From NCBI GenBank assembly GCA_003553485.1, contig PWEJ01000015.1, positions 1 to 35,989 on the forward strand: a stretch of DNA of 35,989 nucleotides, given 5' to 3'. Each line of letters starts with the position of its first letter. Position 1 is the stretch's first letter. The translations under genes and the position numbers were made by a program. The notes beneath the pieces are model-generated. The model worked only from the letters and a program-made list of their open reading frames with translations. It was not told where the DNA came from and did no database searches. Positions 5,575 to 11,785 of this stretch are shown one piece after another. This stretch comes from Halanaerobiaceae bacterium. GTDB taxonomy: Bacteria; Bacillota; Halanaerobiia; Halanaerobiales; Halarsenatibacteraceae.

Positions 5575-6477
5575 TTAAAAGTCTACATACTCTTCCATTT
5601 CTTCATAGGTTCTCCGAACTACATCATATCTTTCTGGTCCAGCCGGTACGAATCCAGATACATTATAGAGGGTATCCAGCAATTCTTCCCCCTCTTCTGT
5701 TTCACCGATATTTACAAAGGCCTGCTGAATATCAGCAACCAAATCAGGATCTAGTTCTCTTCTTACTGCGATACCGTCATTAGGGATTTCTTCTGTGAAT
5801 TCAAAGACATTTACTACATCCATTACATCAGGATATTCATCTTCTACATCTTCCCGGGCATCATCAAAGCTAACGCCAAAATCAGCCTCTTCGTTATAAA
5901 CAGCAATTACAGCAGCATCATGGGCCCCAGCAAAAATTTGTTCGCTGAGATCTTCATCAGGATCAATGCCATGGTCCAGCATGTGAACATAGGGGAACAA
6001 ATAGCCTGCAGTAGAAGCTGGATCAACGAAAGCTGCAGACTTTCCTTCCAGATCTTCTACCGATTCAATCCCACTATCTTCGCGGGCATAAAACTGAGCA
6101 AAATAATGATCTTCACCAAAGCGAATGGAATTTAAGATAATTTCTAAATCATGTCTCTCTTCCCCTAAAACCAGGGCAAAGGGACCAAATATACCTATAT
6201 CAACCCGGCCAGTTCCCATAGCTTCAATAACACTGGTAAAACTAGTCAAAACTGTGCCCTCTACCGGAATATCAAGCTCATCTTCCAGCATTTCAGTCAT
6301 GGGATCAATAGAATCCATCATGACGCCAGCCTCTCTTGAAGGTACCATACCTACCACTAAGTTTTCAGGTACTTCATCTCCTACATCAGCAGGTTCAGCA
6401 TCATCAGCAGCTACCCCCATGGTAAAGGTCAAAGTTACAGCCAACAGCAAAACCATAATAAAGCTTAGTTTTTTCAA
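5575..6477 (-). CDS. phnD: phosphonate/phosphite-type ABC transporter substrate-binding protein PhnD
   Basis: Exported solute-binding protein of the PhnD family, 300 residues. It has a Sec signal (LSFIMVLLLAVTLTFTMGVAA, cleavage near residue 24) without a lipobox Cys, which suggests a soluble periplasmic protein and hence an outer membrane. The mature protein is strongly acidic. Family features are the N-terminal GMVPSREA strand, DIGIFGPFALV, and the ligand-loop segment FVDPASTAGYLFP, in place of the more usual S-T-S-G. The start has GGGAGGAATTAAATT before ATG. It follows the nucleotidase gene by about 50 bp and precedes phnCEE. Ligand could be phosphonate, phosphite or a phosphate ester. Confidence 0.92.
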   Translation of the reverse strand: MKKLSFIMVLLLAVTLTFTMGVAADDAEPADVGDEVPENLVVGMVPSREAGVMMDSIDPMTEMLEDELDIPVEGTVLTSFTSVIEAMGTGRVDIGIFGPFALVLGEERHDLEIILNSIRFGEDHYFAQFYAREDSGIESVEDLEGKSAAFVDPASTAGYLFPYVHMLDHGIDPDEDLSEQIFAGAHDAAVIAVYNEEADFGVSFDDAREDVEDEYPDVMDVVNVFEFTEEIPNDGIAVRRELDPDLVADIQQAFVNIGETEEGEELLDTLYNVSGFVPAGPERYDVVRRTYEEMEEYVDF

Positions 6478-6528: not shown

Positions 6529-8616
6529 TCAATTTTCCTTAACAGTAATTCTTTCCTCTGCTAATTCTTCCCCTAATTCCTCTAATTCATTGACATGTTC
6601 TAATAATATCTCTACTTCTATTCTATCAGTAGTGGAACTATCCAAGGGTGATACATCCTCACTGTAAAATTGATAAACATGACTATTAAAACCAACCTCA
6701 TATTCACCTTCAGGGTCAATTCTCTCTCCATCTTCGTAATACACTCTGGTTTCTATTTTCTCTCCATCTTCTTTAACTATTTCATAGGTGAAACCAGAGG
6801 GCTGGGTGGCAGGACCGCCATACCATTCATTTTGCCCGTGGAGCATTTTTTCAAGCATCTCTCCAGTTACAGTAGCTATAACCACGTTATTATCATAGGC
6901 AAAACTGTCATAAAGAACATTTTGCAGTACCTCTTCATAAACTGGACCTTCTGCAAATTCCACATCTGAAGCCAATTCGTCAGTAGGATAAGTGCCAAAG
7001 TCAATATCAAGCACTTTTCTGACTGCATCGGCTTTTAAATTACCTGCAGGAACAGAACCCTCATCTTTGCCTTCAGTAGTGAGAGGAACTTCTGTTCTGG
7101 CAATTTCCGTACCTTCTCCCCCTGGTACAGAGGAAGTGCTTATACGGTCAACATCCAGATAATGATCTAAATCACCAGGCTCTAAATCTTCTTCAATGTA
7201 TTCAATTATGACATCATTGGTGCGCCGATAAGTGTTTTCACCTTCAGTTTGGGCAGTAAAATCATAGGTTTCAGCCACATAATCACTTAAAGCTACTTCA
7301 TATACCTGGTCTGCATCTAAAGAGGTTCCATCGGGGTAGGTTAATTTTATATCCTCGATAGCACCGATGTCATTGACCACAACCTCATAATGAAGTCCTC
7401 CTGCCTGAAGATCAATGGCAAAACGCCGTTCATAGGAATATTGTAATAATGACTTGATATCATCTTTTGTCATTTCATAGACTACGATATCATTGCCAAA
7501 GGGCTCTAGCTCAAAAATGGTGCCCACAGTAATTTCACCGCCAATCTCACTTACGCGGATTCCACCATTATTTTGAAAGGCAAAGTCAGCATCAACTCTA
7601 TTCCGGGAAGCATCTGTCATCAGACTTCCAAGAGCCATGTTACCACTTAAATCTTCCTCCTGATAGTAAATCTCACGGGAGAATATATCATCTACTTGAT
7701 CTTCATAATAATCGATTTCAGCAGTAACTTCTGGGTCTCTATCTTCAATATCATCAACATCTATTAATCTACCCTCTTTAGAGGTTATATCTCCCTCTTC
7801 ATCCAGTTTAACATTGATTTTTCCTAAATATTCAGTATCTGCCCCGGCCTGAGCCACAAGAGCATCATTGATAACCGGAGGACTTTCTACTACTGAATGA
7901 GAATGGCCACCAATAACCAGATCCAAATCTTCCACTTCTTCAGCCAGATCCTGCTCCCAGCCATGTCCTAAATGGGTTAAGGCCAGAAATATTTCTGATT
8001 CCCCGGCCAAATAATCATACTCTAAAGCTACCTCAATGGGATCGTAAAATTCCATACCTTCTAAACTGCCAGGATGGGTAGCAGGAATACCATCATCACC
8101 AATCTGAACTAATCCCAAAACGGCAATTTCATTACCAGCCTCTGTTTCCAGGAAAATATAGGGCTCGGGCTGTTCTAAATAGGGAGCATCATCTGTGGAG
8201 AAATTAGCTAAAACCATCGGAAAGTCAGCCTGTTCCATCCGGTCTTGAAGAATGTCCTGACCATAATCAAATTCATGGTTACCTATTACCAGAGCATCGT
8301 ACTGGACCTTGTTCATTAGACCGATCATGGGCTTGCCGCGCAGGTTCTCCTCATCAATGACATATTCATCGACTACGGGATTACCACTAAAAATATCTCC
8401 CCCACTTACCAGAAAGACATTGTCATAATCCTCAGCTACTTGCTGCCGGTACCAGGAAATAGCATCAAAATTTTCAATAACTCCGTGTTCATCATTGGTG
8501 TGTAAAAACACCACCTCTTCCGCATAATCCTCTGCCGACAGGCCTGCTGTGAGTGCAAATATCATTGCCAGTGCTAAAGTAGCTGCCAAAAGTTTTCTTT
8601 TGGAAGCTGTTAACAT
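6529..8616 (-). CDS. exported 5'-nucleotidase / 2',3'-cyclic phosphodiesterase (UshA-like)
   Basis: Secreted metallophosphoesterase releasing phosphate from nucleotides, 695 residues. After a signal peptide (residues ~1-28) comes the calcineurin-like domain with FLHTNDEHG (Asp42, His44), SGGDIFSG, IGNHEFDYG and GGHSHSV, all metal ligands present. A 5'-nucleotidase C-terminal domain follows at ~305-485 with FQNNGGIR and LEPFGNDIVV. Residues ~505-690 look like a second, degenerate copy of that C-terminal domain (VPAGNLKADAVRKV; FAYDNNVVIATVTGEMLEKML; SGFTYEIV) lacking the NGGxR motif. The mature chain is very acidic, as in halophiles. It is first in the phn operon, just behind a candidate PHO box. 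Confidence 0.92.
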   Translation of the reverse strand: MLTASKRKLLAATLALAMIFALTAGLSAEDYAEEVVFLHTNDEHGVIENFDAISWYRQQVAEDYDNVFLVSGGDIFSGNPVVDEYVIDEENLRGKPMIGLMNKVQYDALVIGNHEFDYGQDILQDRMEQADFPMVLANFSTDDAPYLEQPEPYIFLETEAGNEIAVLGLVQIGDDGIPATHPGSLEGMEFYDPIEVALEYDYLAGESEIFLALTHLGHGWEQDLAEEVEDLDLVIGGHSHSVVESPPVINDALVAQAGADTEYLGKINVKLDEEGDITSKEGRLIDVDDIEDRDPEVTAEIDYYEDQVDDIFSREIYYQEEDLSGNMALGSLMTDASRNRVDADFAFQNNGGIRVSEIGGEITVGTIFELEPFGNDIVVYEMTKDDIKSLLQYSYERRFAIDLQAGGLHYEVVVNDIGAIEDIKLTYPDGTSLDADQVYEVALSDYVAETYDFTAQTEGENTYRRTNDVIIEYIEEDLEPGDLDHYLDVDRISTSSVPGGEGTEIARTEVPLTTEGKDEGSVPAGNLKADAVRKVLDIDFGTYPTDELASDVEFAEGPVYEEVLQNVLYDSFAYDNNVVIATVTGEMLEKMLHGQNEWYGGPATQPSGFTYEIVKEDGEKIETRVYYEDGERIDPEGEYEVGFNSHVYQFYSEDVSPLDSSTTDRIEVEILLEHVNELEELGEELAEERITVKEN

Positions 8617-9506: not shown

Positions 9507-9862
9507 TACTCTTAGTCACCTCCATCCTAATGCAAAAATAAATTTATAATTTATTATAGCAGATTTCAGTAATCGAGCAATCACATTCTGCTTAGATCTC
9601 GCTTATATATCACTAATAAAAACAACTAAAATTAATCTCGGTTCAATAAAGCCCTCCTGTAGTCACATAATTATTTGAATCTGTTTTTAGAACCAGGTTT
9701 TAAAGCCAACTATTTTATTATATGAAAAACTTTTGATTGAATTATTGCATTTGTTGTGTTAATATTAAAATATATTATTTATATTTTTGATATTTTGAGT
9801 ATTTATATGCATTTTTAGGCAGGTCAAGCAGGATAATCCATTATTTGAAGGGAGAACAAATC
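9507..9862. other. divergent intergenic region before the chemoreceptor gene
   Basis: About 356 bp of AT-rich DNA between divergent genes. Besides the minus-strand promoter at 9553-9580, the plus strand offers only a weak pair (TTGTTG, 16 bp, TATTAT near 9749-9776) for the chemoreceptor gene. No GCCGATAA-type flagellar sigma box, small gene or stable hairpin was seen. Confidence 0.5.
9553..9580 (-). promoter_or_regulatory. sigma-A-like promoter of the SRPBCC gene
   Basis: On the minus strand TTGCTC, a 16-bp spacer and a perfect TATAAT end about 47 bp before the ATG at 9506. The -10 box is consensus; the -35 box matches only in TTG. Confidence 0.5.
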
Positions 9863-11785
9863 ATGAAAGCAATTGGAGGCTTTAAAGGATTTAGGCTGGA
9901 AAAGCAGGCCAGGTTGGGATTATACACTCTCAGTGGGCTCACTATCCTGCTGTCACTTTTGTTTTTTGCAATTATCTGGCAGAGCGAGATGGCAAACTCT
10001 TTTCTGTTAGCACCACTTCTCTTTATACTACTAGCTTTTTTTATCTCCTGGCGATTTTATAAAGGCTTTCAAGAAAAGATGCAATCCAGTTTGAGAAAAA
10101 TAGATGAGGTGACCATAGAATGCGAAAATGATCTTAATACTTCAGATTCTTCTTTCCTGGATATCATTAGTAGCAATGAAGAGCTAGGAGAAGAAGTTGA
10201 CCGCTGCTTTGCCAGCATCCGCAAGATAAATCAGGCCAGTGATGCGAATAATCAGGCTCTCAAAGATGTGGAGAATACAATGGAAGAATCAACTGAAGCT
10301 GTAGAGATGATAGCTAAAGCTGCCCAAAAAATGATAGAGGATAACAAAGATTTGGCAACTGAGATCAGCAACTGTTTTAACAGTATTCGTGAAATTAACA
10401 AAACAAATAATGAAAATAATGCAGCCGTTAAAGAAGTGGTGCAGGTTATGAATAATGCTGGTAATGCTGTAGAGGAAATTGCTGAAGCAGCTCAGATGAT
10501 GGCTACAGAATCGGAAAACTTACAACAGCAGTTGCGGGATTGTTTTACCCAGATAAGAGAGATAAGTTCCTCAATAGAAGAAGGTTCTGCCTCTGTGGAA
10601 GAGGTGACAGATACTTTGGACAGTGCTGCCAAAGCTGTTGAAGAAATAGCCAGAGAGATGGAAGAAATATCAACAGTAGTGGCTGAACTGGCAGAAAACT
10701 CCAGTGAGGTTAATAATAATGCTGAAAACTGCGCTCGACGCATGAGTGAAACTAACGGCTTAATTAAAAAAGGTAGCTCAGTGGTCAATAGCTCTCTAGA
10801 TGAAATGAATAATCTCAATGACAAGATCAGAAAAGTTGATGAAATATCAGAAAAAATTAAAGAAATATCAGATCAGACCAATCTGTTAGCCTTAAATGCT
10901 GCTATAGAAGCAGCTCGGGCCGGTCAGGCTGGACAGGGCTTTAGTGTTGTGGCTGATGAAATAAGAGAGCTGGCTGAAAAAAGCAATGACTCCACTCTGG
11001 AGATACAGACTATTTTAGAAGCAATTAAAGGCCAGGCTGATATGGTGAAAAATTTACTGGATAGTGATTCCAGCAGCGCCAGTAGTGTAACCAGGATTTT
11101 CAAAGAGATTACGGAAAACTCTGATCTGGTTTATTCCTCTATGGAAGAAGTGTTAAGCTTAATGGAAGAGCAGGCTTCCCAGACTCAAGAGGCCAGTGCC
11201 TCAGTTCAGGAGGTCTCCGCCAATTCTCAGGAGGTCTCTGCTCAGGTAGAAGAGATAACCAGTACTATGCAGGAGATTTCAGGCCAGATGGATGATACTA
11301 CTAAAGCAAGTAAGGAACTGGATAGCATTATGGGCGATTTGGAAGAGACCAACGAGGAGTTTTCCGTGGGAGTAGAGGAGCAGGCAGCCAATTCCCAGGA
11401 AGTATCTGCTCAGGTGGAAGAAGTTCTCAGCAATATGGGAGAAATAACTGAACAGCTCGATGAAACTATGGAAGCCAGTCAGGAATTAGATGATATACTG
11501 GAAAATATTGAACAATTAAGTGCTGATTTTGGAGCCAAAATAGAGGAACAGGCTGCCAATTCTGATGAAGTCACTGCTCAAGTAGAAGAGGTTTTAGTTA
11601 ACTTACGGGACATGGCTAAAAAAATCAGCACCAACGTCGAAGCCAGCAAAAAACTGGATATGGTCATAGACGGAATAGAGGAGTTAAGTGAGAAAATCAA
11701 CAGCAAACTGAAAAACCAGACCGGCAGCAATGATAAAATTACTGCAAACTTGCAGGAAATCAAGAAGCAACTGCAAAGCATTTAA
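9863..11785 (+). CDS. methyl-accepting chemotaxis protein with no sensor domain and repeated coiled-coil arms
   Basis: Chemoreceptor signalling protein, 640 residues from ATG 9863 (GGGAG eight bases upstream; an upstream in-frame TTG overlaps that site). Two membrane helices (residues ~18-40 and ~46-64) are joined by only a few residues, so there is no external sensor domain, and no HAMP domain is seen. The hairpin tip is canonical: [20 protein letters not shown] then [16 protein letters not shown]. The N-terminal arm has three 56-residue repeats (Cys115, Cys171, Cys227 in RCF/NCF/DCF followed by an IR-I motif). The C-terminal arm has 56-residue repeats starting [11 protein letters not shown] at Asn454, Asn510 and Asn566, with a partial fourth at 622. 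It presumably couples to CheA/CheW, whose genes are not in the window. Confidence 0.93.

Follow-up and report, generated by a model that had tools for sequence, protein, structure and literature searches.

The stretch of DNA analysed here (hereafter the window; 35,989 nucleotides of contig PWEJ01000015.1, Halanaerobiaceae bacterium) encodes a protein which, judging by its MCPsignal domain and conserved tip, is a methyl-accepting chemoreceptor (MCP) (Table 1). A tip motif of 17 protein letters is present, and a canonical tip segment of 23 protein letters lies in the hub. The two transmembrane (TM) helices, in whose region a KQ and a P are invariant among relatives, are joined by a few residues and are followed directly by the coiled coil; an external domain is absent, as an earlier reading of the sequence alone (the sequence-only reading) had proposed. 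Two genes located upstream of the receptor gene, on the - strand and divergently oriented, code for a phosphonate-type ABC substrate-binding protein (5575-6477; TIGR01098, E=1e-65) and for a 5'-nucleotidase-like protein (6529-8616). Gene neighbourhoods differ across genera, and no conserved neighbour or partner gene was found beyond close relatives.

Table 1. Chemoreceptor gene of the window and its parts (positions in the window)
Feature	Position	Strand	Basis or remark
Ribosome-binding site AAGGGAG, upstream of ATG 9863	9848-9854	+	Called good; sequence
Chemoreceptor gene, 640 aa (start ATG 9863, stop ends 11785)	9863-11785	+	MCPsignal PF00015, E=4e-43
Two TM helices (~residues 18-41 and 46-66), few-residue linker	9914-10060	+	Sequence; model helices 9-40 and from 45; relatives
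N-arm half repeat, membrane-proximal (residues 87-114)	10121-10204	+	Register alignment with relatives
N-arm repeat N1 (residues 115-170)	10205-10372	+	
N-arm repeat N2 (residues 171-226)	10373-10540	+	
N-arm repeat N3 (residues 227-282); predicted first-arm methylation region	10541-10708	+	
Signalling hub, conserved (residues 283-453); hairpin tip 354/355	10709-11221	+	PF00015 and 2ch7 matches
C-arm repeat C1 (residues 454-509); predicted second-arm methylation region	11222-11389	+	
C-arm repeat C2 (residues 510-565)	11390-11557	+	
C-arm repeat C3 (residues 566-621)	11558-11725	+	
Partial C repeat, terminal (residues 622-640)	11726-11782	+	Ends level with the membrane surface

Repeat architecture of the two arms

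In the N-terminal arm, Cys115, Cys171 and Cys227 each open a CF..I(R) unit, with a spacing of exactly 56 residues, and in the C-terminal arm a unit beginning NS.EV(S/T)AQVEE opens at residues 454, 510 and 566 and, in degenerate form, at 622, again spaced exactly 56. The sequence-only reading had described this common spacing, together with one Cys at the start of each N-arm repeat, and both points were confirmed: offset 56 outscored every other offset in self-similarity, both for the N arm (25% identity, mean BLOSUM62 +1.16) and for the C arm (34.5% identity, mean BLOSUM62 +1.60), with offset 112 second in each. Chance coiled-coil periodicity was ruled out as the source of this period by shuffles in which the residue composition was preserved at every heptad position (n=5000), none of which matched, for the N or the C arm, the top score observed among multiples of 7 (z at offset 56 of 6.8 and 9.3, respectively).

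The strongest period in each arm thus corresponds to eight heptads. The end of TM2 (~residue 68) is separated from the tip by 286 residues (69-354), and the tip from the C-terminus also by 286 (355-640), which brings the end of the terminal partial C repeat level with the membrane surface. The protein therefore has ~41 paired heptads (roughly 82H), in agreement with the ~570 cytoplasmic residues and ~80 heptads estimated previously. Division into 56-residue steps, counted from the tip, yields a half repeat, N1, N2, N3 and the hub for the N arm, and the hub, C1, C2, C3 and a partial repeat for the C arm; an incomplete repeat closes each arm on the membrane side. The repeats of both arms overlap in the hairpin with a phase offset of ~27 residues: mirrored about the tip, the N repeats (115-282) land on residues 427-594, and the C repeats occupy 454-621. 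What is matched between the arms is the number of repeats, not their boundaries. Furthermore, the a/d phase is unbroken in both arms of the four members tested, the same two residues modulo 7 being hydrophobic along both arms, so that the insertions never break heptads.

Profile searches of 59 genomes of the bacterial class revealed eight members of the family, six of which are the six loci present in the named genome collection. The full repeats per arm number (i) 1+1 in five members (L018 and L019 of Halanaerobiales, L020 of Halanaerobium saccharolyticum, L021 of H. kushneri, and L022), (ii) 3+3 in two members, namely the window protein and L016 of genome G004, which are 68% identical, and (iii) 4+4 in one member (L017, from the isolate genome of Fuchsiella alkaliacetigena); only three of the eight are thus long. 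Unequal arms were found in none of the eight. The earlier proposal that both arms had grown by matched blocks of eight heptads with the register kept is strongly supported by these equal counts in three different states, and the search that it had suggested for relatives with a one-sided gain returned none. The distance from tip to C-terminus is 175, 286 and 343 residues in the 1+1, 3+3 and 4+4 forms (about 25, 41 and 49 heptads), the difference between 343 and 175 being exactly 3 x 56; it is 166-180 residues in the remaining short members and 295 in L016, which has a short tail. In an unguided MAFFT alignment, the gaps of the short relatives fall as whole repeats in each arm. An assembly artefact was ruled out, since the 3+3 layout recurs in a second genome (G004) and the 4+4 layout stems from an isolate genome. 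No convincing member was found outside the class, either in 398 genomes of the phylum or in the named genome collection. The gene is patchily distributed: no member was found in G001, G002 and G003, three further species of the genus to which the window belongs.

Structure, methylation sites and cysteines

AlphaFold2 models predict an antiparallel helical hairpin both for the window protein and for a 1+1 relative. In the relative (mean pLDDT 80), a single helix (44-240) extends from TM2 as far as the tip; after a turn at 241-244, the return arm is composed of two helices (245-287 and 289-414). The window protein shows the same hairpin with a turn at 355-359 and a moderate pLDDT of 63; low-confidence kinks at 197-201 and 512-517 occupy mirror positions about the tip. 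Residues 205-495 match the Thermotoga maritima receptor 2ch7 by sequence (E=5e-23), and residues 212-512 align to it by fold. Matches to pore-forming and BAR proteins in the structure library were discarded as generic long-helix similarity.

A HAMP domain had been reported as lacking, and this was corroborated: Pfam gave no HAMP in the N-termini of the family even at E=10; the positive control, an ordinary receptor encoded in the window's genome, scored 4e-14. The N-arm unit is close to HAMP in length, and one 16-letter segment loosely resembles the second HAMP helix, so that the arm could be conceived as a chain of degenerate HAMP domains (~50 residues each) and not as slabs of a bundle. Such a chain is extremely improbable, however, given the Pfam result, the absence of a connector, the unbroken heptads, the single continuous helix in the model of the 1+1 relative and the identical period in the C arm; the HAMP or poly-HAMP reading was rejected on the Pfam searches and on that helix model.

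Candidate methylation sites lie at tip-115, in N3, where the strict consensus is present, and at tip+109, where it is strict in the window protein and also in L016-L019; both positions recur in L001, a 44H receptor encoded by the window's genome. The repeated C unit holds the canonical methylation helix. Together with the AVEE-I motif repeated in the N unit, the recurrence of near-consensus sites 56 residues further on (one extra copy in L016, at +165, being strict) and the single CheR encoded in the genome, this is what would be expected if the copies multiplied the adaptation region, each slab adding methylatable Glu residues that widen range or gain, with length as a by-product. We regard this as unlikely: the strict consensus occurs mainly in the canonical, hub-proximal slab, which argues against extra adaptation sites, most extra copies are degraded in the window protein and in L017, and small residues are scarcer in the membrane-proximal repeats of both the window protein and L016.

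The window protein has two further cysteines (Cys87 and Cys290), and all five share one heptad position, which is a core position; the three long members have Cys171, Cys227 and Cys290 in common. On these grounds, the cysteines of the N-arm repeats could form disulfides across the dimer and make the protein an internal redox sensor. A core position is also suited to plain packing, however, and the short relatives carry Ser or Thr in place of the Cys, while that of the first repeat is Tyr in Fuchsiella. With the core position and the Ser or Thr replacements, the redox idea has little support, and it appears highly unlikely.

In the N arm of the Fuchsiella protein (L080, P0002), a Gly recurs every 56 residues, at tip-113, -169, -225 and -281; it is possible that it provides a built-in flexible joint in each slab.

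Evolution of arm length

In a tree of the hub rooted with ordinary receptors as outgroup, the family is monophyletic (UFBoot 97) and the three long members are grouped (UFBoot 78) and nested within the short ones; as the short forms are basal, the greater length is a derived state. At the DNA level, copies within the Fuchsiella gene reach 89% identity for N2-N3 and 85% for C2-C3. Matching pairs of the two arms have similar NG86 dS values, namely 0.45 for N2-N3 vs 0.50 for C2-C3 (with wide bootstrap intervals of 0.20-0.97 and 0.21-0.98), 0.82 for N1-N3 vs 0.97 for C1-C3, and 1.14 for N1-N2 vs 1.08 for C1-C2. Given the width of the intervals, these values are consistent with paired events, proof of which is not claimed.

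In the repeat trees, the repeats of the window protein and of Fuchsiella are not grouped position by position. A single ancestral repeat set, common to both proteins position by position, is weakly disfavoured, the AU test being marginal (p 0.03 for N2 and 0.06-0.27 for the others). Independent amplification or homogenisation of the repeats in the two proteins is favoured but not proven.

Both arms of the 1+1 forms already carry repeat-like segments at a distance of 56 residues, a possible starting point for unequal crossing-over. Lengthening might then be neutral: the 168-bp repeats would expand by recombination, purifying selection would let only in-register outcomes with equal arms survive, and the added length would serve no function of its own. 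The up to 89% DNA identity of the Fuchsiella copies also points in this direction. We nevertheless find neutrality rather doubtful, since the 3+3 state has been retained between the window protein and L016 at 68% identity and with synonymous sites near saturation, and since a passage through unequal intermediates would be expected to lower fitness unless greater length is advantageous.

Receptor height and array membership

The window protein resembles the 44H chemoreceptors (T. maritima TM1143, PDB 2ch7; Bacillus subtilis McpA and McpC) in its hairpin tip, hub and heptad register. Unlike them, it has neither HAMP nor ligand domain and carries ~19 extra paired heptads as tandem 8-heptad slabs; with 286 aa and ~41 paired heptads per arm, it lies beyond the 22 paired heptads of the 44H class, and it also falls outside the class in which a HAMP follows TM2. 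It shares a few-residue TM linker and the absence of a sensor domain with the two-TM chemoreceptors that have no ligand domain but, unlike these, has no obvious partner gene adjoining it. The length classes 24H-64H are reportedly those of Alexander and Zhulin. As in these classes, length in the window family changes symmetrically around the tip. The family differs from them in reaching ~82H and ~98H, by increments that are recognisable tandem 8-heptad copies and not single heptads. Even 64H, the longest named class (32 paired heptads), is exceeded, with ~41 paired heptads here and 49 in Fuchsiella, and the window protein is among the longest chemoreceptors described. Profiles of the named classes, from 24H to 64H, are available in MiST3 (PMC6943060), length changes between classes have been described as symmetric heptad insertions around the tip (PMC5907407), and rare receptors above 64H have been mentioned without description (PMC6628036). 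In the present family the individual increments can still be made out as tandem copies, in the states 1+1, 3+3 and 4+4, which allows the history of the matched arms to be reconstructed and dated.

At 10.5 A for each paired heptad and 35 A for each HAMP (PMC6628036), the estimated height is ~26 nm for the short members (25 paired heptads, no HAMP), about 26-27 nm for an ordinary 44H receptor (22 paired heptads and one HAMP), ~43 nm for the window protein and ~51 nm for the Fuchsiella protein. The short members thus have the calculated 44H height, which the long ones exceed by 17 and 25 nm, and the family constitutes a natural series for asking whether height alone separates chemosensory arrays. 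Receptors differing in length have been found to segregate into separate arrays, for which a 14-residue insertion suffices (PMC6759762). The suggestion of the sequence-only reading that the repeats could set the distance between membrane and CheA array is plausible and agrees with the published length classes. In the genome of the window, seven ordinary receptors measure 155-159 aa from tip to C-terminus vs 286 in the window protein, and the CheW-domain proteins found comprise a single one of CheA type and two CheW.

Taken as a whole, these data are probably best explained by a tall, slab-lengthened receptor that stands outside the ordinary arrays and whose length has been selected. From the membrane to the tip and back, the cytoplasmic part is one antiparallel coiled-coil hairpin, predicted to dimerise to a four-helix bundle. 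The descending arm has gained as many blocks of eight heptads as the ascending one, each slab moving the tip ~8.4 nm further out, so that hub, methylation region and heptad phase stay in register. This anatomy and the equal counts are established, and what follows is inferred from them. Length itself would be the selected property, and the extra slabs would act as spacers raising the tip. A tip at ~43 nm could not share a base plate with the HAMP-bearing 44H receptors of the same cell (~26 nm), and the protein would therefore form its own taller array or signalling complexes. These would use CheW and the single CheA found; with only one CheA-type protein, the same kinase would have to serve tall and ordinary arrays alike. 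As a ligand-binding domain is absent, input could come from the membrane helices, from a membrane partner or from the coil itself. Function and array membership are deduced here from length, and a tall receptor outside the ordinary arrays is the likeliest reading.

A bolder version can be put forward tentatively, as a possibility that is less probable than its opposite: the family would grow in quanta of eight heptads, both arms having been amplified together repeatedly in separate lineages (at least for the 3+3 and the 4+4 forms), and would build tall single-receptor arrays with base plates at ~43 and 51 nm. If true, such arrays would add a separate signalling layer to the cell: they would share CheA with the ordinary arrays, and their height would be all that keeps the two apart.

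Other chemosensory genes were observed in the course of this analysis. Genome G021 (locus L075; 93% complete) encodes four chemoreceptors, including one 1+1 member; neither CheW nor a CheA-type CheW domain was found in it, which may reflect assembly gaps, as the congener G018 has three. In the genome of the window, one receptor (L010; G000:C161:90140-93622) carries a sensor-like domain (MCP-like_PDC_1, weak) that is not extracellular but placed behind the hairpin. Another chemoreceptor of this genome (L009; G000:C33:4897-8358) has an N-terminal membrane anchor and, behind the hairpin, a complete glycine-betaine-binding domain (OpuAC, E=1.5e-42); on the basis of these domains, it is likely a cytoplasmic osmolyte sensor in this halophile.
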